Assembly: GCA_017536635.1 (NCBI GenBank)
Contig: JAFXHA010000062.1
Coordinates: 1 to 32,026, forward strand
Direction: 5' to 3'
Length of the DNA: 32,026 nt
Source: Clostridia bacterium
GTDB taxonomy: Bacteria > Bacillota > Clostridia > Oscillospirales > CAG-272
Part shown: one piece after another, positions 21,916-31,871 of the stretch
How the letters are laid out: each line of letters starts with the position of its first letter
Position numbering within the stretch: position 1 is the first letter of the stretch
Made by a program: the position numbers and the translations under genes
The notes under the pieces: model-generated
Database searches by the model: none
Told to the model about the DNA's origin: nothing
Seen by the model: only the letters and a program-made list of their open reading frames with translations

Positions 21916-21948
21916 AAAACGCCGCAGGATATCCTGCGGCGTTTTTTT
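21916..21948. terminator. Bidirectional terminator between GH16 and the redox operon
   Basis: Positions 21916-21945 are a perfect palindrome, 15 bases per arm (core CGCCGCAGGATATCCTGCGGCG), with T-runs on both strands. It serves the GH16 gene on plus and the 2-hydroxyacid dehydrogenase gene on minus. Confidence 0.88.
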
Positions 21949-21949
21949 A

Positions 21950-22951
21950 TCAAGCCATAGTTTCAAGCATTTTCAGGGAGACCTCGTAACGACACCTTCC
22001 GTTGCCAAGGTATGCTCTGTATTCATCCAGCATATATTCGCCCATTCGGCTGACCTCGTCGCCCGCGCTTCCCGCGATATGCGGCGTCAGCATACAGTTC
22101 GGAAGCGTATAGAACGGATGATCGTCTACGGGCGGCTCGGGATAGGTAACGTCAAGCAGCGCCGTAAGATCCTCTCTCTCGCCAAGCACTCTGACAAGAT
22201 CGTCCTCGACGACCTGCGCGCCCCTGCCGGTGTTGATAAACACGGCGTTCTCACGCATAAGCCTGAACAGCTCGTAATTCAGCATTCCCTTGGTCTGCTC
22301 GTTGTTGGCAAGGTGATTTGACACCACAAACGCTCTTTCAAAGAGCTCTTTTAGCTCACGTTTCTCCACACCGAGCTCATCTGCAGCTTCATCGGGCAAA
22401 AACGGATCGAAAACTATCACGTTCAGATTATACTGCTTGAGCATACGAATAACGAGCTTTCCGATCATTCCCGCTCCTATGATACCCACCGTTTCTCCAT
22501 AATTTCCGCGACATTTCGCAAATGCCGCTGCCGCGGCTTTTCTGCCGTCGGTGTGATAGATACGGTTGGTCAGAAAATATCCCTTGTTCGCAAGGATGAT
22601 CTGCGCCACGGTCATCTCTGCCACGGGCACCGCGTTTGCCGCCCACGCAGAAAAGACCTTGACTCCACAGTTAATAAACGGACGCGCAAAGCTTTGCACG
22701 GTTCCCGCCGTATAGAAAATGCATTTCAAGCTCGGAAAGATCGTCTTTATTTCTTCTTCCGTGAATATTGGCATTCCCCAGGTCGAGAAAATTATCTCGG
22801 TATCGGCAAATTTTTCGGGCGCCGCGACAACGTCGGTCCTGTCGTACACCTCTTTATCCAGCTCAGAAAGCGCACACAGCTCGCGCACGGTGGCATCATT
22901 ATATACCTTTTTGCAGGTCTCTTTATTTTTTGTCAAAAATATTGCTTTCAC
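21950..22951 (-). CDS. D-2-hydroxyacid dehydrogenase family protein
   Basis: Members reduce 2-oxoacids such as hydroxypyruvate, glyoxylate or phosphoglycerate-related acids with NAD(P)H. The Rossmann motif GIIGAGMIGKLV is near residues 154-165. The catalytic Arg is in INTGRGAQVVE, the Glu in the TYPEPP region and the His in LTPHIAGS. The length of 333 residues is usual. The start is GTG: GTGA overlaps the TGA of the upstream isomerase gene by 4 bases, with AGGAG just ahead, showing tight coupling. It is the last gene of the five-gene redox operon and ends 5 bases before the shared terminator. An oxoacid produced by the operon is its likely substrate; this is inference. Confidence 0.88.
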   Translation of the reverse strand: MKAIFLTKNKETCKKVYNDATVRELCALSELDKEVYDRTDVVAAPEKFADTEIIFSTWGMPIFTEEEIKTIFPSLKCIFYTAGTVQSFARPFINCGVKVFSAWAANAVPVAEMTVAQIILANKGYFLTNRIYHTDGRKAAAAAFAKCRGNYGETVGIIGAGMIGKLVIRMLKQYNLNVIVFDPFLPDEAADELGVEKRELKELFERAFVVSNHLANNEQTKGMLNYELFRLMRENAVFINTGRGAQVVEDDLVRVLGEREDLTALLDVTYPEPPVDDHPFYTLPNCMLTPHIAGSAGDEVSRMGEYMLDEYRAYLGNGRCRYEVSLKMLETMA

Positions 22952-23718
22952 GTCTGTTCTCCTATTATAGCTCTCAGTGTCGCAGCTTCGGTCTTGAGCG
23001 TGGACAGTTTGTCGTCCGGCATAAACTCAAGCAAAAGCGTGCGCGGCACGGAAAATTTCGTTAAATACTTGCGCCATTCCTCTATGCCGTCAGCAAGCGG
23101 AAATTTCTCCAGGTGTCCCTTGTCCTTCCACTGAAAAACGTGAATGTGGCGCGTATATGGCGCTATCGCCTCTGCATACGCAAGATTCTCATCTATGCTC
23201 TGCCATTGAAACGGCTGCCAATACATCTTAAAGCAGGGGGAATTTACCGTTCTCATAAGCTCAAGTGCGTCATCAAGATACTGAGTAAAGGTTTTTGTAT
23301 GACACTCCATACACAGCGTAACGCCGTTTTTCTCAGCAATCTTCGCCGCCTTGACACAATCCGAGAGCAGCTCCCCACGCTCCACGTCCAACATATCCGC
23401 GCCCGACCGCTTTCCGCACCAAAGACGCAGGATATCGGTTCCGAGCATCTTAGCGGCGGAAATATATTGCTCCAACTGATCGACAGGCGTTTCTCCCAAG
23501 CGGAAATAGGTTCCGTAAGACGAGCATTCTATGCCGTATTCCCGTTGCAGCTCTGCAATCTCTCCAAGGCGAGATATATCCGTGCAGGGCGCGTGAACAT
23601 CGCTTCCCCACTCTATGCAGGAAAGCCCTGCTGCCTTGACGGCGTCCAGAATTTCTCTCGGCGTATTCTTTCTGAAGGACACCGACACTAATCCCAATTT
23701 ATAATCCTTATTTTCCAT
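22948..23718 (-). CDS. Sugar phosphate isomerase/epimerase-like TIM-barrel protein
   Basis: This 256-residue protein belongs to the xylose isomerase-like TIM-barrel (AP endonuclease 2) superfamily. The metal-site residues expected for such enzymes are visible as Glu in TLCMECHTKTF, a histidine in RHIHVFQWKD and Glu in LLLEFMPDD, all on separate strands. Members isomerise or epimerise sugars and keto-sugars, or cleave C-glycosides and inositols, so the substrate is open. It starts 5 bases after the flavoprotein stop codon and overlaps the dehydrogenase downstream by 4 bases. Confidence 0.78.
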   Translation of the reverse strand: MENKDYKLGLVSVSFRKNTPREILDAVKAAGLSCIEWGSDVHAPCTDISRLGEIAELQREYGIECSSYGTYFRLGETPVDQLEQYISAAKMLGTDILRLWCGKRSGADMLDVERGELLSDCVKAAKIAEKNGVTLCMECHTKTFTQYLDDALELMRTVNSPCFKMYWQPFQWQSIDENLAYAEAIAPYTRHIHVFQWKDKGHLEKFPLADGIEEWRKYLTKFSVPRTLLLEFMPDDKLSTLKTEAATLRAIIGEQT

Positions 23719-23723
23719 CTTTA

Positions 23724-25511
23724 TCAGTTCATCTCCCGCTTTTTTCTCGCCAGAAGCGTTTCAAACCAAAGCTCAGGGCTTGGCATAGGTGAGACGGGTG
23801 CGTTCTCCGATTTCGCCCCTCTCGTCAGCGTGCGAGTGGCTCTCGGCTTGTTTCCCTCTCGACGCGGCAAACGGTCTACAAGAGCCGAGCCGTGCGTTCC
23901 GATGCTCTCTGCGGAGCATATCATAGCGGACAGAGCCGAGCGTTGAGTCAGCACCGTATCGTAAAGTCCAAAAAGCTCTGCGATCTGCGAGGGGTCCTCG
24001 ATCTCTGCCACCTCAAAAAACTCATCGCAAAGCCTGTTGACCTTATCAAACAGAGCCTTCATTCCCGCAGTACTTCTGTCAAAGTCGGCGACACGGCTCA
24101 TCTCACCTTGAAGCTCGTCGCGAATACCTTCGATATTCGATTTTCCATACCGTATATGCGGCGGCGTATAAGACGGCTCGCCAACTATTGCGCTCCGCCC
24201 CTTCGAGATATGCTCAGCCGCGCGCAAACTGCCGACCTGAGTAGAATTCAGCGCGCTTCCGCCCGGGCGGTATACGCCAAAGGTTCCTGCCGCCTCGCCC
24301 GCAACGTAAAGTCCGCGAACGTCGCTCTGCCAATTCTCGTCGACCGCCACACCGCCGTTACAATGCTGTGCGCAAACGGCGATCTCCAGATACTCGGTAT
24401 AAAGATCGATACCGTGATCTGCATAAAGCTCGATCGCACCGAGATTCATTTTCGCAAGCCGCTCTATCGGAGTACCAAACAAAGCTCCCGAGCGTTCAAG
24501 ATATTCGTGAGTTTCCTTCGGCAAAGAATCAAAGCCCGACTCCAAGCCCTTAGGATTTTTAGTAAAATCAAGGAACACGCTATTCCCCATCTTTATCTGA
24601 TCGGCGACGAGCAGATCTACTCTTGACGAGCCGTCGGTCTTTCTGGTATCAAACGGCCACTGATATCCCTTGAGGAAGATCAGACCAAGCGATTCCTCTC
24701 CCAGTGCATCGTAAAGAAACTCTCGCTCGTTGCCGTCTTTATCAACGCAAATATACCTGGGCAATACCTGCTGATAGGTTCCCGACAGATTCCAGCGGAA
24801 CTTAGTGCTTGCTATGCCGTACTGCCATTCTTCCATATTGGAGAGCGCCGCGCCGGCGTCGATCGCAAGTCCCGTTGCGCCGCGCTGACTTTCGGGATAA
24901 ACGGTATTTTTATAAATACCCGCAGGACCGCCCGTACACAGAATAACGTTTTGGCAGGCGATAGTCGATATCTCGCCCGTTACCGTGTTGACGCAGGCTA
25001 TCCCTCTGACCGAATTATCCTCGGTCAGAATTTTTATAACACGCTGAAAATCAATAATTTCTATTCCCTTCGCGAGCACCGAGCGCTCAAGCGCCTCGGT
25101 CATATATTTTGAGGTCAGCGGACCGCAGGACGTTGCTCTCGTTCTCGGATCGTGATCTGTCTTATATCCCGCATATTCTCCGTATTCGTTGGCAGGAAAC
25201 GGCACGCCAAGCTCGACCAGACGCATAAAGCAGCGTGTCGAGTACGCCGCCTCGCAAAGCGCGTGCTCGCCCATCACACCGCCGCCCGAGTATAGTGTCT
25301 CAGCCAACTCGCGTACGCTGTCCCCGTCAGATCCGCAAAGCGAGAGCTTATAATAAGTTTGCTTGTCGCTTCCCGTATTGCGCGACGTTCCCATAAATCT
25401 GCCCTCTGTAACGATAGCTATATCCCGCACTCCAAGATCATAGAGCCTGTCTGCCGCGTTGTATCCCGCACAGCCCGTGCCGATAACGAGAGTATGATAT
25501 CTTTTTTTCAT
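23724..25511 (-). CDS. FAD-dependent fumarate-reductase-like flavoprotein
   Basis: This 595-residue soluble flavoprotein is related to the succinate dehydrogenase, fumarate reductase and aspartate oxidase flavoprotein group. The FAD-binding GTGCAGYNAA motif is at residues 11-20, an NTGSDKQTYY segment stands where the family binds the diphosphate, and the second FAD motif is LYVAGEAAGTFGVYRPGGSALNSTQ. There is no signal peptide, multiheme domain or FMN-attachment domain, so it is not a respiratory urocanate- or fumarate-type reductase of the exported kind. It could oxidise or reduce a carbon-carbon bond alpha/beta to a carbonyl. Its start overlaps the SDR stop by 4 bases (ATGA). Substrate unknown. 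Confidence 0.8.
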   Translation of the reverse strand: MKKRYHTLVIGTGCAGYNAADRLYDLGVRDIAIVTEGRFMGTSRNTGSDKQTYYKLSLCGSDGDSVRELAETLYSGGGVMGEHALCEAAYSTRCFMRLVELGVPFPANEYGEYAGYKTDHDPRTRATSCGPLTSKYMTEALERSVLAKGIEIIDFQRVIKILTEDNSVRGIACVNTVTGEISTIACQNVILCTGGPAGIYKNTVYPESQRGATGLAIDAGAALSNMEEWQYGIASTKFRWNLSGTYQQVLPRYICVDKDGNEREFLYDALGEESLGLIFLKGYQWPFDTRKTDGSSRVDLLVADQIKMGNSVFLDFTKNPKGLESGFDSLPKETHEYLERSGALFGTPIERLAKMNLGAIELYADHGIDLYTEYLEIAVCAQHCNGGVAVDENWQSDVRGLYVAGEAAGTFGVYRPGGSALNSTQVGSLRAAEHISKGRSAIVGEPSYTPPHIRYGKSNIEGIRDELQGEMSRVADFDRSTAGMKALFDKVNRLCDEFFEVAEIEDPSQIAELFGLYDTVLTQRSALSAMICSAESIGTHGSALVDRLPRREGNKPRATRTLTRGAKSENAPVSPMPSPELWFETLLARKKREMN

Positions 25512-26239
25512 AATCTTCTTACGTGCATTCCTCCGTCAATGATCAGCGACTCGCCCGTCATATATCCGAGCGTTCCGTCGCAAAGTGCCACGACCGCCTT
25601 TGCAATATCGTCAGGCTCTCCCCAACGTCCGAGCGGAACGAGTCCGTCCTCGATAAGAGCATCGTATTTCTCCTTTACCGCCTCGGTCATTCCCGTAGCG
25701 ATAATACCGGGGCAGATCTCGTTTACGGTAATACCCTCACCCGAAAGCCTGTCGGCAAAAAGCTTGGTTATCATAGACACGCCTGCCTTTGAAATACAGT
25801 ATTCTCCGCGGCTTGTGGAGCTGGTGTACGCCGAGCAGGACGAGATATTTACTATCGCGCCGCCCTTGCCTTGCCTTACCATTTCGCTTGCCACCGCCTG
25901 CGTCAGAAACAACGTCCCCTTGGTATTGATACCCATAACGAGATCATAGCTCTCCTCGGTCATCTCCAGAATATCGCGGCGCACCTTGGGAGCTACACCC
26001 GCAACGTTGACAAGAGCTGCGATCTCGCCCTTGGACACGGCGGCGCTCACGAGCCGCGCGCGGTCCTCGCCCAAAGAAATATCCCCCCGAACGTACGTAA
26101 TATCAAGCCCCTCAAAATCCGAAAGATCGGGCGTCTCGCTCCGTCCCATTCCTACGACGGCATATCCTTTTTTAGCAAGCAAGAGTGCCGATGCCTTTCC
26201 AATGCCGCCCGCTATTCCCGTTACTATTGCAATTTTCAT
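25508..26239 (-). CDS. Short-chain dehydrogenase/reductase
   Basis: A classical SDR of 243 residues. It has the cofactor motif TGIAGGIG (7-14), the NVAG motif (NVAGVAP), and catalytic Ser134, Tyr147 and Lys151 in EYCISKAG, followed by the NEICPGIIATGM segment. Asp40-region residues suggest no clear NAD or NADP preference by eye. SDRs of this type oxidise secondary alcohols of sugars, hydroxy-fatty acids or hydroxysteroids. It overlaps both neighbours by 4 bases (ATGA on each side), so it is translated with the OYE-type and fumarate-reductase-like genes. Confidence 0.88.
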   Translation of the reverse strand: MKIAIVTGIAGGIGKASALLLAKKGYAVVGMGRSETPDLSDFEGLDITYVRGDISLGEDRARLVSAAVSKGEIAALVNVAGVAPKVRRDILEMTEESYDLVMGINTKGTLFLTQAVASEMVRQGKGGAIVNISSCSAYTSSTSRGEYCISKAGVSMITKLFADRLSGEGITVNEICPGIIATGMTEAVKEKYDALIEDGLVPLGRWGEPDDIAKAVVALCDGTLGYMTGESLIIDGGMHVRRL

Positions 26240-27432
26240 TTTTCGATCTCCTTATAAAGCTCTCGGTAATACTCATTAAACACAGCGCAGCCTGAAACCC
26301 TTTTGTTTCGCATCAGCACCGTGCATTTAGAGCAGGCGAGACAGCATCTTTTAGAATCAAATATACCATTCAGATGATCTCTGTAAAAGCCGGGGTATGC
26401 AAGCCACATCCTGCCGTATCCCACAAGGTCGCATATTCCTTCCGCAAGCTGTCTCTCCGACTGCTCAAACAGATCCTCACGGTAATACGAAAGCCCCGAT
26501 CCGACAACCGTGAGCGTTGGAAAGCGTTCCTTTATGTGCTTCTCGATGGTCTCAAAGCGCGCAAGTCCCATCTGTGCCGTCTCGGGCGGCTGATATCCGC
26601 CCTTTCGGTAAGGACGGTTGACGTGAGGATTATAATACGGATTTCCCACGGTAACGTTCAGCATTTGCACGCCCTCCGCTACAAGCCTCTCGATAAGCAT
26701 ATCGGGCTCGGTAAGATCCAGCTCGTTCTGCTCGGTAGTTCCAAAGCCGTACGGCTTTGGAACCATATCCGAAGCGCTCAGTCGCGTCGTCAGCAAAATG
26801 CCGTCAGGTATTGCCTTTTTAACCGCTCTGACGCAGTCAAGATACAGCCTTGCGCGATTTTCAAAGCAACCGCCATAGCGCCCCTTGCGCTCAAAGGCGG
26901 ATAAAAGCTCTTGAAAAAGATATCCGTGGCAGGACTTCACGTCAACGCCGTCAAAGCCTGCCTCGATAGCGAGAAGCGCCGATAAAACGTATTTTTCGGG
27001 AAGCGTATCAAGATATTCGTCAGACACGATGTTTTCATCGGTTACAGGTCTTTTCTCCTCATAAACCGGATTGCGATAGGCGATCATCGGGACAATACTC
27101 TGCCTGCCAGAATGAGTAAGCTGCAAAATGAAGATGGGACTGATGCCGCACTCATCCCGCGCTATTTTCCGCATATCGCTCAGCAGGGCCTTGAAGGCGG
27201 ACAGATTTTCCCTTGTCAGCATCATCTGTCTCGGATTAGTTCTTCCCTCGGGGCAGACCGCGTTTGCCTCAAACCAGATAACACCCGCTCCGCTTTTCGC
27301 CGCCTTGATATATTTTTCAACCGTCAGTGAGCTGGGACTTCCGTCGGTATTGCAATCACAGCCCTCCATAGGCTGAAGCACTATGCGGTTGCAAATTGTT
27401 TTTTCTCCCACTTGAATCGAATTACTTATCAT
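26236..27432 (-). CDS. Old-yellow-enzyme family NADH:flavin oxidoreductase with iron-sulfur motif
   Basis: The 398-residue protein is an FMN TIM-barrel of the OYE family: ICNRIVLQPMEGCDCN at the start, ILQLTHSGRQ (102-111), and a strand GFDGVDVKSCHGYLFQELLS where ordinary members have the HGYLLxQF segment. Near the C-terminus Cys364, Cys367, Cys370 and Cys382 resemble the 4Fe-4S site of 2,4-dienoyl-CoA reductase and bile-acid BaiCD/BaiH. The second FAD/NADH-binding half of those proteins is missing. A start at 27543 without ribosome-binding signal is rejected; the ATG at 27432 has AAAGGTG upstream and gives a proper domain start. First gene of the five-gene redox operon, divergent from the bile-salt-hydrolase gene. 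Likely an ene-reductase or demethylase; substrate unknown. Confidence 0.82.
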   Translation of the reverse strand: MISNSIQVGEKTICNRIVLQPMEGCDCNTDGSPSSLTVEKYIKAAKSGAGVIWFEANAVCPEGRTNPRQMMLTRENLSAFKALLSDMRKIARDECGISPIFILQLTHSGRQSIVPMIAYRNPVYEEKRPVTDENIVSDEYLDTLPEKYVLSALLAIEAGFDGVDVKSCHGYLFQELLSAFERKGRYGGCFENRARLYLDCVRAVKKAIPDGILLTTRLSASDMVPKPYGFGTTEQNELDLTEPDMLIERLVAEGVQMLNVTVGNPYYNPHVNRPYRKGGYQPPETAQMGLARFETIEKHIKERFPTLTVVGSGLSYYREDLFEQSERQLAEGICDLVGYGRMWLAYPGFYRDHLNGIFDSKRCCLACSKCTVLMRNKRVSGCAVFNEYYRELYKEIEK

Positions 27433-27507: not shown

Positions 27508-27580
27508 GAATATAACCGCATAATTATCATTATTTTTGCACACGCTTTACTAAAGATTACTAAGCAAAAAAGGAGAAGCT

Positions 27581-28525
27581 ATGTGCACAGCAATAAGCGA
27601 CAATAGCGGTCGTCATCTGTTCGGCAGAACGCTCGATCTTGAATATTCCCTGTCCGAGCAGGCAGTTATCACACCTCGGGGCTTTGAATTGAATTTCCTG
27701 CGCGAGCCTCCTCTCACAAGGCATCTTGCGATCATCGGAATAGCGCACGTATTTGGCGGTATTCCTCTTTATTACGATGCGGCAAACGAGGCGGGACTTG
27801 CCGCCGCGGGCTTGAATTTCGGCGGCAGCGCCGTATATTCTGAGCCGAGCTCAAGTACGCACAATATTGCATCCTTTGAGCTTATACCATGGGTGCTCGG
27901 GCAATGTAAAAGTGTCGGCGAGGCGGCGGAGCTGCTCAAAGGTACCTCTATAATCGCCGACAGCGTTGACGCATCCCTGCCCGCAACGCCTCTGCATTGG
28001 CTCATCGCCGACAGAACGGGCGCGATCGCCGTAGAGCCGATAGCGGATGGGCTTAAAATCCGCGAGGATCCGTTTGGAGTGCTGACAAACGAGCCACCTC
28101 TCGACTATCATCTGACGAACGTTAAAAATTATACGTCTCTTAATGCCACTCCGCCCAAAAACACGCTCTGTCCCGACGTAAAGCTTGAGCCATATTCGCG
28201 CGGAATGGGTGCTATCGGTCTTCCGGGAGATCTTTCGTCATCATCGCGCTTTGTGCGTGCGATATTCGCAAAAAGCCACACTCTGCCGGAACCAGAGCAA
28301 AACGCCGCAATCAACAGATTCTTTCGCATTATGGACACGGTATCCGTACCGCGCGGCTGTATAATCACCGACGAGGGCAAGGCGGTCTCGACCGTCTACG
28401 TATCCTGTGCCGATACCGAAACCGCGACCTACTATTTTTCCACCTACGGCAACCGCAGCATCCACTCTCTGCGACTTTCCGACGCCAACCTTGATTCAAG
28501 TGAGATATTTGCTGAGACTATATAA
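27581..28525 (+). CDS. bsh: Choloylglycine hydrolase family protein, probable bile salt hydrolase
   Basis: This family cleaves amide bonds of conjugated bile salts, penicillin V or acyl-homoserine lactones. The 314-residue protein has the N-terminal nucleophile Cys2 exposed after Met removal, Arg16 and Asp19 in GRTLDLEYS, Asn79 in AGLNF, Asn170 in VLTNEPP and Arg223 in SSRFVR, matching the six active-site residues of bile salt hydrolases. The loop YSRGMGAIGLPGD is very like that of lactobacillus and clostridial enzymes. There is no signal peptide, as is usual for Gram-positive bile salt hydrolases. AAGGAG precedes the ATG. It is a single-gene unit divergent from the redox operon. Penicillin acylase activity is a less likely alternative. 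Confidence 0.88.
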   Translation: MCTAISDNSGRHLFGRTLDLEYSLSEQAVITPRGFELNFLREPPLTRHLAIIGIAHVFGGIPLYYDAANEAGLAAAGLNFGGSAVYSEPSSSTHNIASFELIPWVLGQCKSVGEAAELLKGTSIIADSVDASLPATPLHWLIADRTGAIAVEPIADGLKIREDPFGVLTNEPPLDYHLTNVKNYTSLNATPPKNTLCPDVKLEPYSRGMGAIGLPGDLSSSSRFVRAIFAKSHTLPEPEQNAAINRFFRIMDTVSVPRGCIITDEGKAVSTVYVSCADTETATYYFSTYGNRSIHSLRLSDANLDSSEIFAETI

Positions 28526-28582: not shown

Positions 28583-29806
28583 TTAGCCGTAATATTTATC
28601 CAACACGTCGCTGACCGTTTCTGACCAGACTATAAGATTTTCGGGGCGATGCGACACGGTACTGATATCCTTGAGGACAAGCTCTGTGGGGCAACCGTAC
28701 TTCAGCGCCGCCTTGACAGATCTTTCGGTCTCCTCGCGTATTACGTCGGGATCGGTATTGATTGCTACATACGCAGGGTTTGGCTTGCGCGCGAGCACGC
28801 AATCTCCGCCTATCTGCTCAGCGCAGCGTTCTACGTTTGCCCAAGGTGAACAGCCTATCTTGCGAAGATTAGGAATGGTTTTAAGCAGCTCTATCTTATC
28901 GTCAAGCGGCTCGCAGCAACCGTAATAGGTATAGGCAAAGCGCTCCGCTATCGAATAAAGATAATCAAGCTCAAACTCCTTGAACATCTCGGGAGATACT
29001 ACGCCGAAGGACTGTGCCGCAGCTCTGAGCCACATTGACTTTAAGCCTCCACCCTCCATTCCCGATATCTGCGCGGGCGTACAGTGAAGAGAGGAGGGAC
29101 AAAGCACGTCAAGATACTTTTCAACAAAATCCATCTGCTTGTGCGCTGCGGACTCGTATTTAGCTATTATTTTATGCAGATACTCGGGACGGTCATACAT
29201 ATCCATAAGCATAGGCTCGACACCGCGAAGCCTCGTTATCATATCCCACGGAACATGAGACATATATCCGAAGCCGTACTGTCTTATCGGTATGGAATCT
29301 CCAAGCAGCTCGGTGTAAAATTCCATATTCTGCGCATCCTTTTCGGGATCGAGAGAAAATTCGGGATCGTGCATCAGCTCAAGAGCCGACTCGTCCTCAA
29401 GCACGTCCTCATATTCCCTGGAAACTATTCTGTTTTTATCGTCGGTACGCTTCAGGTCAGCAGTCTTGAATTCGATACCCATTCCCGTCGAATGAACGGT
29501 GCGCGCGACTCTGAAAAAGGGCTCGCAAAGATTATCCGCCTTAAAATGCTTCAGATAAAAAAGCTTGGTTCGAAAATAATATTCTACCTTGCGAGCCGAC
29601 TCGTCCTCACATACGCAGTCAAGCTCGCCGTCCATATTCATCTGATACCACGGGATCTCGTCGAGCAACACGGGCGGACGAACGATCTTCAGATCGTTCG
29701 AATCCTGCATACGCTTAAACATTGCTCTTTGCTTATCGGTGTCCACGATCGCCATATACTGCTTTGCAAGCTCGCGAACTATACTTTTATCCTTTTCGCT
29801 TATCAT
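28583..29806 (-). CDS. Uroporphyrinogen decarboxylase-family protein, non-haem type
   Basis: The 407-residue protein shares the UroD/MtaA/CmuA barrel. Many members outside haem synthesis are zinc-dependent methyltransferases acting on methoxy compounds, methylamines or cobalamin proteins. It carries Cys297-Cys298 in YYGCCEPLDD and Cys319 in KIGCSPWANV at the positions where such enzymes coordinate zinc, and ends ELVLKDISTVSHRPENLIVW. It is longer than true HemE (about 350) and lacks its arginine-rich N-terminus, so a haem role is unlikely. It has its own extended -10 promoter and follows the CE15-like gene. A methyl- or methoxy-group transfer role in plant-derived carbon use is inference. Confidence 0.72.
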   Translation of the reverse strand: MISEKDKSIVRELAKQYMAIVDTDKQRAMFKRMQDSNDLKIVRPPVLLDEIPWYQMNMDGELDCVCEDESARKVEYYFRTKLFYLKHFKADNLCEPFFRVARTVHSTGMGIEFKTADLKRTDDKNRIVSREYEDVLEDESALELMHDPEFSLDPEKDAQNMEFYTELLGDSIPIRQYGFGYMSHVPWDMITRLRGVEPMLMDMYDRPEYLHKIIAKYESAAHKQMDFVEKYLDVLCPSSLHCTPAQISGMEGGGLKSMWLRAAAQSFGVVSPEMFKEFELDYLYSIAERFAYTYYGCCEPLDDKIELLKTIPNLRKIGCSPWANVERCAEQIGGDCVLARKPNPAYVAINTDPDVIREETERSVKAALKYGCPTELVLKDISTVSHRPENLIVWSETVSDVLDKYYG

Positions 29807-29858
29807 GAATGATTTTCCCCCTCATTTATGTATTATTTTATTTTTATTCTTTGGCTTA

Positions 29859-29867
29859 ATTATAGCA
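29859..29867 (-). promoter_or_regulatory. Extended -10 promoter of the UroD-family gene
   Basis: On the minus strand TGCTATAAT, preceded by ATA, lies about 53 bases upstream of the start; no recognisable -35. Confidence 0.6.
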
Positions 29868-29917
29868 TATAAAAAGAAAAAATAAATAGGGTTTTATTGC
29901 CTTTTTCTTGTCTTTAG

Positions 29918-29947
29918 GGATGCCCCCCATAAACTCCGGGGCTATCC
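29918..29947 (-). terminator. Hairpin after the CE15-like gene
   Basis: On the minus strand GGATAGCCCC pairs with GGGGGGCATCC around a 9-base loop, starting at the base after the stop codon. It lacks a T-run on either strand, so termination is uncertain. Confidence 0.4.
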
Positions 29948-31087
29948 TTAAGGACATCTCCACTTATATATCAGCTCGGGCTCCTCAAAGGGCGTTGAGA
30001 AAAAGCCTTCGCCAAGCGGAGCCCCCTCCCGCTGATGCTTTATGACCGACACCGCCATGGCAATATCCTCGGGCTTGTGAAAATGCTCCCCTTTTCTGAA
30101 ATACCAATAAAGATTTTTTTCCTTACCGTAAAGCTTATATACCTCGCTCACCGCCTGCGTGGTCATCCACGAACCGATGGGATTTGCCCAGACGTCGCTT
30201 GCCGCCTCGGCAACCACCAAGGTCCTCGGTGCGACAAGTGCCTTGAGAAAATGCTCGTCAAAGGGCAGCTCCTCTTCACACTGTACGTATTTTTTTATAT
30301 CCGAACCAAACCAATAAGTAAAAGCACGGATAAGATCGGCAAGAGTTTCGCTGCGCTGCTCCGTGCCGTTTTCCTTGATCGCGCTCATATGTACGCGGTA
30401 ACAGCCGCAACCGCCGGCACCCGATTCGTTGGGTACAACGATCCTCGCACGCTTATCAAGAACACCCGCAAGCGCGGCAGTCTTTCCGCCGCGCGAATGT
30501 CCTGTAAAGGTGATCCAATCCATATCGAACAGCTCGAGCTTCTCAAGCGCATCCACACATCTCGAATATCCCCACGCCCAAGCGCCGAGCGCTCCGAACG
30601 TGTATTCGGGATAGCACTCGTAAAGCGGTCCCTTGCGATCGTTCACATATATATCGGGCGCAAGCTCGGTGCGGTTAAATAGCGCAAGCCCTATGCCTGC
30701 GTCAAGCGCCTGTGCTCTCCATTCCTTGTCAAAGGCATAGTCAAAGCACATATCACCGTCAACGATGACGGGAGTCTTCACTCCCTTTGGTGCGGCAAAA
30801 TACACTCTCATCGTAAAGGATATAGGATGCGCGCGTCTTCCCGTTGTAATACGATAATTTCCTACATTGATACCCTTGAAAAGCAACTCTACCTCGAGAA
30901 ATTCGGGCTCGGGCGGCATCGTTCCGTACTGAAGCTCGACCGCACTCTTGTAAAGCTCTGCTTTGTGCTCCTCGAACTCCTCCGACGTAGACACACGCGT
31001 GCCGTCAGCGCGAAGAAACGGATCGGGAAGCTCTCCAAGCACCTTGTAGTCGGTTATCTTTATTACTTTTTCATTAAAAATAGCCAT
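29948..31087 (-). CDS. CE15-like glucuronoyl esterase family alpha/beta-hydrolase
   Basis: CE15 enzymes cut ester bonds between glucuronic acid on xylan and lignin alcohols. The 379-residue protein shows the CE15 nucleophile motif GHSRGGK with Ser198, the VPNESGAGGCGCYR block with Glu221 at the place of the catalytic acid of the fungal enzymes, and GEHFHKPED with the likely catalytic His (335 or 337). A W/Y-rich substrate region precedes the nucleophile. It has no signal peptide, unlike most biomass-degrading CE15 enzymes, so it would act on imported, small uronate esters. It follows the TIM-barrel isomerase gene by 13 bases with AGGAG ahead of its ATG. Confidence 0.75.
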   Translation of the reverse strand: MAIFNEKVIKITDYKVLGELPDPFLRADGTRVSTSEEFEEHKAELYKSAVELQYGTMPPEPEFLEVELLFKGINVGNYRITTGRRAHPISFTMRVYFAAPKGVKTPVIVDGDMCFDYAFDKEWRAQALDAGIGLALFNRTELAPDIYVNDRKGPLYECYPEYTFGALGAWAWGYSRCVDALEKLELFDMDWITFTGHSRGGKTAALAGVLDKRARIVVPNESGAGGCGCYRVHMSAIKENGTEQRSETLADLIRAFTYWFGSDIKKYVQCEEELPFDEHFLKALVAPRTLVVAEAASDVWANPIGSWMTTQAVSEVYKLYGKEKNLYWYFRKGEHFHKPEDIAMAVSVIKHQREGAPLGEGFFSTPFEEPELIYKWRCP

Positions 31088-31100
31088 ACCGTTTCTCCTG

Positions 31101-31871
31101 TCATTGCTTTATTTTTATGTTTTCGAGCAGCTCCGCATAATTTTTCACCGCCGTTTCAAAATCAGGACAATACAAGCATTCAAGGCTCATACGTCCGTTA
31201 TATCCGACACTCTCAAGCGCAGAAACAAATGCCTTTACGTCGTCGGCATCCTCGGCTTCGGGCGCGCCTCGGTCATCGTTCATACGGGCAATATGCGTGT
31301 GCAGTATGTATTTGCCATACCTTGCAATATCCGCCATATCCTCGCCGTTCTTATAAAAATGAAACAGATCAACTATGCAGCCGATATCATCTCTACCGAT
31401 ATCCTCGCATATTTTCGCGGCTTGTGCTAACGTCTTTATAAAATTATCATCGCTGAGCGGCTCTATCGCGACCTTCATTCCATAGACAGAAGCTACGTCC
31501 GCTACGGTAACAAGAGCCATTTTGAAATTCTCCTCGGCTTCTTCCACACTACAGCCCTCGGGTATTTTTCTCGCGCCGCCGCTACCAATAACTACTATTT
31601 TTGTTCCGAGCCTCGCAGCTCTTGCAAGCGCCATTTCGGCATAAGCTTTTATCGCCTTAAGATCAATATTATATGAAAGCTTCAGATCCGAACTGCAAAA
31701 TCCATTTACAGCCTCAAAAGACATTTGAGTTTTCTCAAGCGCGGCGCATACTATATCAAATTTCTCGTCGGTCATTTTGGAGATCGCACTCAGACTCCCC
31801 TCTGCATAGTCAAATCCCAAGCCTTTGATATATTCAAGCTTTTCCGCGCCCGTGCATATTCCAAATTTCAT
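31101..31871 (-). CDS. Sugar phosphate isomerase/epimerase-like TIM-barrel protein
   Basis: A second xylose isomerase-like TIM-barrel protein, 256 residues. The metal-binding strand ends are visible: Glu in KVAIEPLSD, Asp in GCIVDLFHFYKN, His in YILHTHIAR and Glu in MSLECLY. It is not closely similar to the protein at 22948-23718. Substrate could be a keto-sugar, uronate or cyclitol. TAGGAGG precedes the ATG. It is the first gene of a unit with the CE15-like esterase, which could hand it a freed uronic acid; that link is inference. Confidence 0.8.
   Translation of the reverse strand: MKFGICTGAEKLEYIKGLGFDYAEGSLSAISKMTDEKFDIVCAALEKTQMSFEAVNGFCSSDLKLSYNIDLKAIKAYAEMALARAARLGTKIVVIGSGGARKIPEGCSVEEAEENFKMALVTVADVASVYGMKVAIEPLSDDNFIKTLAQAAKICEDIGRDDIGCIVDLFHFYKNGEDMADIARYGKYILHTHIARMNDDRGAPEAEDADDVKAFVSALESVGYNGRMSLECLYCPDFETAVKNYAELLENIKIKQ

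Follow-up and report, generated by a model that had tools for sequence, protein, structure and literature searches.

A conserved three-gene flavoprotein module of Clostridia with a possible role in the breakdown of sugar acids

In the KduI/KduD route, 4-deoxy-5-keto-uronate is converted to 2-keto-3-deoxygluconate (KDG), and alginate users employ DEH reductase, a short-chain dehydrogenase. We analyzed a five-gene operon in a 32,026-nucleotide stretch of DNA from a Clostridia bacterium (contig JAFXHA010000062.1; the whole stretch is called the window) that invites comparison with these routes. Its genes encode, in order, an OYE-type ene-reductase-like flavoprotein (OYE), a short-chain dehydrogenase (SDR), a FAD flavoprotein (FLV), a TIM-barrel protein (TIM), and a 2-hydroxyacid dehydrogenase (HDH). 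An SDR near lyases and near KDG kinase and KDPG aldolase genes, and the likely end product, are common to the described routes and to the module formed by these genes. The module differs in that KduI was not found in 38 of the 42 family genomes that carry FLV, and in that the flavoproteins OYE and FLV have no counterpart in the KduI/KduD route. Its SDR also scored only 152.7 bits against the model of KduD (2-dehydro-3-deoxy-D-gluconate 5-dehydrogenase, TIGR01832), under the cut-off of 338.85, so that SDR is disfavoured as KduD itself. Operons for levoglucosan (LgdA/B1/B2/C) and for glycosides (GlycDH, AtOGE, AtHYD, Gfo) likewise contain oxidoreductases alongside proteins that bear the annotation sugar phosphate isomerase; compared with the operons as set out in the relevant passages of the two accounts (PMC7676230, PMC10628242), the window operon has no Gfo/Idh protein, has OYE and a protein of the fumarate reductase (FrdA) fold in its place, and has TIM as an optional member. 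No described pathway for the set OYE-SDR-FLV, with or without TIM and HDH, was found in the literature searched, which is weak evidence of novelty because subscription papers lay mostly outside it.

The five genes are complete and lie end to end on the minus strand (27432-21950), joined in gene order by an ATGA overlap, a second ATGA overlap, a 5-base gap, and a GTGA overlap. A preliminary description, made from the sequence alone, had proposed five translationally coupled genes with these junctions, and coordinates, junctions, and Pfam domains all agree with it (Table 1). The mechanically called OYE reading frame opens further upstream, at an in-frame GTG at 27543, and the ATG at 27432 was taken as its start. 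Many bacterial operons contain four-base overlaps, so the overlaps alone are no proof of a single pathway; a gene order that is conserved elsewhere is stronger evidence for one unit. A scan of GTDB genomes with FLV gave at least 567 relatives, of which the best 80, from Bacillota and mostly Clostridia, were taken for the counts at first-set loci given here and below. Order was counted only at loci with enough flanking sequence (70, 77, and 66 of the 80, the 70 having at least 1.7 kb of upstream room). At 60 of the 70 loci with upstream room, OYE and SDR preceded FLV in the same orientation; SDR was adjacent to FLV at 70 of 77, and OYE was upstream of it at 64 of 70. Downstream of FLV, TIM was present at 23, HDH at 19, and both at 17 of the 66 loci with room. 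OYE-SDR-FLV is the conserved core, and TIM and HDH are recurrent optional extras. The order thus occurs in other genomes too, so that the preliminary description is not refuted on this ground, which it had named itself, and its proposal of one pathway or complex for all five genes holds for OYE, SDR, and FLV and less so for TIM and HDH. That OYE, SDR, and FLV would act as one functional unit is well supported by this gene order. An AraC-family gene lay within 6 kb of FLV at 31 of the 80 loci.

The association of OYE with FLV extends beyond this neighbourhood. At an E-value of 1e-80, FLV had one match per positive genome, in 42 of 98 genomes of the family and in 21 of 398 genomes of a phylum sample, the window's own genome included; its distribution is patchy, and 12 families of the phylum sample carry it. 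Relaxing the threshold to 1e-3 added one weak match (27% identity) in the own genome. OYE was present in 15 of the 20 other FLV-positive genomes of the phylum sample vs. 14 of the 377 FLV-negative ones (tallied by hand), and in 8 of those 15 it lay on a different contig from FLV, showing that the predicted OYE and FLV genes co-occur in genomes beyond adjacency. Eleven of the 14 genomes with OYE and without FLV were examined (G250, G428, and G470 were not included). At nine of these 11 loci, OYE had beside it a divergent homologue of FLV (29-32% identity to the FLV of the window or of Escherichia coli), and at two (L145, L146) no FLV was seen; because these loci were found via OYE, only the presence of FLV beside OYE is informative. 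A zinc alcohol dehydrogenase accompanied the divergent FLV and OYE in eight of the nine, often together with an ABC or TRAP transporter. In a tree of 52 selected FLV rows, the nine divergent FLVs formed their own fully supported branch. Taken together, these data show that a predicted alcohol dehydrogenase (SDR here, zinc alcohol dehydrogenase in other lineages), an OYE with an iron-sulfur-type motif, and a FAD protein of the FrdA fold are encoded together, and that this putative unit is present on either side of a deep division within FLV.

FLV also has a homologue in an E. coli island between ytfB and rplI (L126 5892-14815; L130 5844-13263), which holds SDR, TIM, enoyl-CoA hydratase, CoA transferase, the FLV homologue, and TRAP or MFS transport. 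The FLV gene of this island is present in 3106 of 5426 complete E. coli genomes. The island has in common with the window the FLV homologue (37% identity), an SDR of the NF009386 model (419.3 bits), and a TIM-type gene, and it differs from the window operon in having no OYE and in its added CoA chemistry. No name or description of the island was found in the literature searched.

Table 1. Features of the operon and its flanks in the window.
Feature	Coordinates	Strand	Description
OYE	26236..27432	-	398 aa, ATG start; FMN/4Fe-4S-type ene-reductase-like; PF00724, 104.5 bits, above the gathering threshold of 27
SDR	25508..26239	-	243 aa; NAD(P)-dependent short-chain dehydrogenase; PF13561, 163.8 bits, also PF00106
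FLV	23724..25511	-	595 aa; FAD flavoprotein, fumarate-reductase/aspartate-oxidase fold family; PF00890, 84.8 bits
TIM	22948..23718	-	256 aa; xylose-isomerase-like TIM-barrel protein, optional operon member; PF01261, 76.3 bits
HDH	21950..22951	-	333 aa, GTG start; D-2-hydroxyacid-dehydrogenase family, optional member; PF02826, 151.4 bits
Intrinsic-terminator-like hairpin	21916..21945	-	13 pairs, 8 of them G-C, 4-base loop, T-rich tail; closes the operon
Choloylglycine-hydrolase-family (CBAH) gene	27581-28525	+	divergent from OYE; passes NCBIfam bile salt hydrolase model NF038245, 367.3 vs. 350

The terminator-like hairpin behind HDH sits between the convergent HDH and GH16 genes and is the longest of 11 such sites in the region (6.3 expected). 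On the other side of the operon, beyond the CBAH gene, the minus strand carries a row of genes at 28583-31871 for a UroD-like protein, a glucuronyl-esterase-like protein (PF22244), and an IolO-like TIM-barrel protein; the UroD-like protein was identified by eye and is without a Pfam match at 1e-3.

The reading of OYE as an OYE-type flavoprotein with an iron-sulfur motif, also made in the preliminary description, is borne out by its PF00724 match and by a Cx2Cx2Cx11C motif at residues 364-382, which we take to be a 4Fe-4S site. Residues 166-171 read KSCHGY, and K166, C168, H169, and Y171 as well as the four motif cysteines do not vary among 24 aligned sequences, that of the window OYE being one of them. 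The window OYE thus has K-S-C-H-G-Y and not the substrate-binding His/His or His/Asn pair that we assume to be canonical for the family. It shares the OYE barrel with BaiCD, bilirubin reductase, and the mycofactocin OYEs. It differs from them in its scores, 85 to 112 bits where the cut-offs are 425 to 825 (85 bits vs. 825 for the bile acid BaiCD model NF041087; 89 bits vs. 425 for bilirubin reductase), in the Lys of the hexapeptide, and in its length, which leaves no space for the C-terminal FAD/NAD dinucleotide domain of long OYEs. The extra four-cysteine motif is presumably the mark of iron-sulfur OYEs, which the window OYE resembles in this respect. SDR has the motifs TGIAGGIG and YCISK and passes NCBIfam NF009386 (PRK12745) with 268.8 bits, the cut-off being 250; the name of this model, 3-ketoacyl-ACP reductase, is its annotation and not evidence of SDR function.

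The 85-bit match to BaiCD and the bile-salt-hydrolase-like CBAH gene beside OYE could be taken to suggest that the operon is a Bai-type OYE/SDR set for the transformation of bile acids or sterols. We regard this as extremely improbable, given how far OYE falls under the BaiCD cut-off and given that the recurrent neighbours of the core are carbohydrate genes. Moreover, CBAH is not conserved beside the core in relatives; it was seen near it in one other listed locus only (L047).

FLV carries a GTGCAG motif at its N-terminus, and an alignment of 32 FLV sequences (window included) has 112 invariant columns. We compared FLV with E. coli fumarate reductase by HMMER alignment from a profile of these 32 sequences. 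The invariant R415 (YRPGGSALN) falls on the Arg of the stretch ANRLGSN, whereas the active-site His of the HPT motif, which ends the QYH stretch, is missing, a Gly being aligned there. The His of the AHYTMGG stretch is missing as well; Q382 is aligned with it, and the conserved His of FLV itself (QH.NGG) lies one place further on. We take the ANRLGSN Arg and the AHYTMGG His to belong to the active site of fumarate reductase. The region of the proton-shuttle Arg, presumably R287 of E. coli FrdA, fell outside the HMMER alignments, and by eye no conserved Arg was found there in the FLV alignment. FLV reached 77.8 bits against the fumarate reductase/succinate dehydrogenase flavoprotein model TIGR01812 (cut-off 567.3) and 111.6 bits against the L-aspartate oxidase (NadB) model TIGR00551 (cut-off 452.75). 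FLV therefore has the FAD fold and R415 in common with these flavoproteins, and differs from them in lying far under the equivalog cut-offs, in its Gly and Gln for His, and in its frequent companion OYE. These comparisons suggest that FLV retains one probable carboxylate-binding Arg and that the rest of its active site differs from that of fumarate reductase. The term fumarate-reductase-like, used in the preliminary description, fits the fold and nothing beyond it, and FLV is disfavoured as a fumarate reductase proper.

If FLV served as a fumarate-reductase-like electron sink, it would reduce an enoate to shed electrons, with OYE supplying them. Its FrdA/aspartate-oxidase fold and its pairing with OYE across two FLV subfamilies are consistent with such a role, which is nevertheless very unlikely in our judgement: the FrdA models are matched far under their cut-offs, two active-site His are replaced, and TRAP, ABC, KDG kinase, and KDPG aldolase neighbours suggest carbon use.

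We tentatively favour a cytoplasmic catabolic redox module that would turn a uronate-like sugar acid into KDG, and give this reading, in which we infer both the substrate and the order of the steps, somewhat less than an even chance. The substrate would be a sugar acid, most likely uronate-derived, freed by heparinase II/III-fold lyases, other (alpha/alpha)-toroid lyases, or glycosidases. SDR, or the zinc alcohol dehydrogenase, would convert a hydroxyl group of the ring or chain to a ketone or back, and OYE and FLV would add or remove hydrogen across a C-C bond beside this ketone and the carboxylate. TIM would catalyze an isomerisation or elimination, and HDH would act on a 2-keto or 2-hydroxy acid. 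The product KDG would then pass through KDG kinase and KDPG aldolase to pyruvate and glyceraldehyde-3-phosphate. In the most speculative part of the proposal, OYE and FLV may form an electron-transfer complex (FAD - 4Fe4S - FMN), which would explain why the two travel together. A bolder version, rather unlikely in our opinion, would be a third, flavin-dependent route to KDG: the alcohol dehydrogenase, the FMN/4Fe-4S OYE, and the FrdA-fold FAD protein would work as one complex (FAD - 4Fe4S - FMN - NAD(P)H), first desaturating a uronide or unsaturated uronate and then reducing it again, in much of Clostridia, and the deep sister subfamily would perform like chemistry on other sugar acids.

Several neighbours of the core fit a sugar acid as substrate. 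A wider census covered 119 loci (the first 80, 19 FLV loci of the phylum sample, and 20 OYE loci; the same-genus locus L125 was left out), where neighbours, as at the OYE loci, were labelled by BLAST against a purpose-made label set and not by Pfam gene by gene; in addition, 121 of 146 co-directional extra open reading frames were scanned. Among these 121 were Gfo/Idh (9), heparinase II/III-fold (7), KDPG aldolase (4), PfkB kinase (4), GH43 (3), MFS_2 transporter (3), GH88 (2), and UroD (2) genes. Heparinase-fold genes lie near the core in nine first-set loci, and KDPG-aldolase/kinase genes in L017, L018, L070, and L078, so that L017 and L018 have both. Homologues of KDPG aldolase and KDG kinase come immediately after FLV in L111 and L117, which belong to two distant families, and one locus with a divergent FLV (L140) brings TRAP transport, FLV, OYE, SDR, zinc alcohol dehydrogenase, a dehydratase, KDG kinase, and KDPG aldolase together. 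In a Rhizobium locus (L127), FLV is accompanied by Gfo/Idh, by a KDG-kinase-like gene scoring 249.9 bits (cut-off 400), and by a gene above the cut-off of a fructose bisphosphate aldolase model. Distant FLV loci have GH28, pectinesterase, and GH112 neighbours; at others, CoA transferase, enoyl-CoA hydratase, TRAP, ABC, and IlvD/EDD-type dehydratase genes were found.

Associations were also found at the level of whole genomes. KDPG aldolase (PF01081) was present in 41 of 42 FLV-positive vs. 30 of 56 FLV-negative genomes of the family (p 4.5e-7), the only positive genome without a match (G050) being 63% complete, and heparinase II/III (PF07940) in 33 of 42 vs. 7 of 56 (p 2.3e-11). With one genome per genus, the counts were 31/32 vs. 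20/37 (p 5.5e-5) for KDPG aldolase and 26/32 vs. 6/37 (p 5.1e-8) for heparinase II/III. In the phylum sample, PF07940 occurred in 10 of 20 FLV-positive and 38 of 377 FLV-negative genomes (tallied by hand). Within three classes of genome size, heparinase was associated with FLV in all three (p 0.0039, 0.0092, and 3e-6) and KDPG aldolase in two. Of the substrates suggested in the preliminary description, uronates fit best, in view of KDPG aldolase, KDG kinase, heparinase-fold lyases, and pectin genes, and bile acids fit poorly. GH115 occurred in 3 of 98 family genomes, too rarely to judge a link to FLV.

Several observations weigh against a route from uronates to KDG. A heparinase-fold gene lay within 6 kb of FLV at only 9 of the 80 loci. 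UxaC (38/42 vs. 32/56) and GH28 (35/42 vs. 23/56) are associated with FLV in the family genomes as well, and FLV-positive genomes are larger (median 2.3 vs. 2.0 Mb); a plant-fibre lifestyle and genome size confound the co-occurrence, and ordinary uronate use and lifestyle may explain part of it. GH88 is not associated with FLV (8/42 vs. 9/56), which argues against ordinary unsaturated oligouronides as substrate. KduI is not associated either (4/42 vs. 10/56, p 0.38): it is rare in FLV-positive genomes and not significantly rarer than in the others, and no exclusion pattern supports a replacement of KduI by the FLV module. The own genome has a heparinase match that barely clears the cut-off (24.7 bits vs. 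24) and is located on a different contig from the operon. Its one KDPG aldolase gene is outside the operon as well, some 2 kb away from UxaC (contig C54), so that it may serve ordinary uronate use; taken alone, this genome ties the operon neither to heparinase nor to KDPG aldolase. The FLV relatives of E. coli and Rhizobium have no neighbouring OYE. With Gln at the position of the AHYTMGG His, which in fumarate reductase is on the carboxylate side, only one Arg of FLV favours an acid substrate, which weakens the case for such a substrate. Finally, UroD-like genes near the core or OYE at 8 of the 119 loci fit the proposed route badly, and IolM-, IolO-, and IolB-like neighbours point elsewhere, as does a shikimate-dehydrogenase-like protein, read by eye, near OYE and FLV in L140 (5408-6328).

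These last neighbours would suit the breakdown of a cyclitol or hydroaromatic acid (inositol, O-methyl-inositol, quinate/shikimate), in which a ring hydroxyl is oxidised, water is lost, and the ring C=C is reduced or opened, leading to KDG or CoA esters. The zinc alcohol dehydrogenase of L064 scored best on the scyllo-inosose dehydrogenase IolM (233.8 bits, cut-off 450), with threonine dehydrogenase nearly equal (232.9); L109 has an IolB-like gene (87.7 of 205) and a FrlC/IolO-like gene (158.7 of 305; 109.4 of 300); and the second TIM-barrel gene of the window is IolO-like (71.6 of 300). The only PDB sequence match of TIM at E 0.01 is AsbF (6.8e-6), the shikimate-dehydrogenase-like gene of L140 fits as well, and the UroD-like genes could handle methyl groups. 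All of these model matches, however, lie under their cut-offs, and the heparinase-fold and pectin genes would be left unexplained, which makes a cyclitol or hydroaromatic substrate distinctly unlikely. The inositol-to-propionate pathway of Anaerostipes was considered and rejected as a match; as given in the relevant passages of PMC8355322, it consists of iol genes, CoA transferase, and acyl-CoA dehydrogenase, not the window set.

The main rival to a KDG-forming module is a scheme of glycoside oxidation, elimination, and reduction. In it, a dehydrogenase would form a 3-keto glycoside, TIM would expel the aglycone to leave a 2-hydroxy-3-keto-glycal (an enone), and OYE and FLV would handle the enone or reoxidise the sugar. 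In the passages of PMC7676230 and PMC10628242 on the levoglucosan and O-/C-glycoside operons, oxidoreductases are joined by 'sugar phosphate isomerase' proteins that act as eliminase and hydratase, and no OYE or FrdA-type protein is described. Gfo/Idh is the commonest family among the scanned extra neighbours, and varied glycosidases (GH43, GH65, GH28, GH112, GH38) lie near the core or FLV, both of which would suit such a scheme. But the window operon has neither a Gfo/Idh nor a GMC 3-dehydrogenase, 20 of the 119 loci had Gfo/Idh in the vicinity of the core or of OYE, TIM is absent downstream of FLV in most loci, and glucose as the end product would leave the link to KDPG aldolase unexplained. 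We therefore consider the glycoside scheme fairly unlikely.

As for the optional members themselves, the window TIM and its close orthologues keep E138 of 'ECH' and the final EF, and have YWQP where we would expect the Asp of the metal site. HDH has the motifs GAGMIG, NTGRG, EP, and PHI, and in two distant families an HDH homologue adjoins FLV (L112) or lies two genes away from it (L111). Directly behind HDH, four loci carry a family of proteins of 554-570 aa (L003 11543-13237, L005 11533-13245, L008 11544-13235, L067 10892-12556), for which neither a Pfam match (L003 member) nor a convincing PDB sequence match was found.

We file the module as a variant among catabolic redox operons rather than as a new kind. 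Its three enzymes are common to many related gut and rumen bacteria and probably have a part in an undescribed route for the breakdown of sugar acids from plant material. Should the module supply the KDPG route, a branch may be absent from genome-based models of how rumen and gut Clostridia break down uronates and plant fibre, and two flavoprotein families would gain a testable function. Because the FLV family is also found in the E. coli island, the result of an assay would extend to a model organism.

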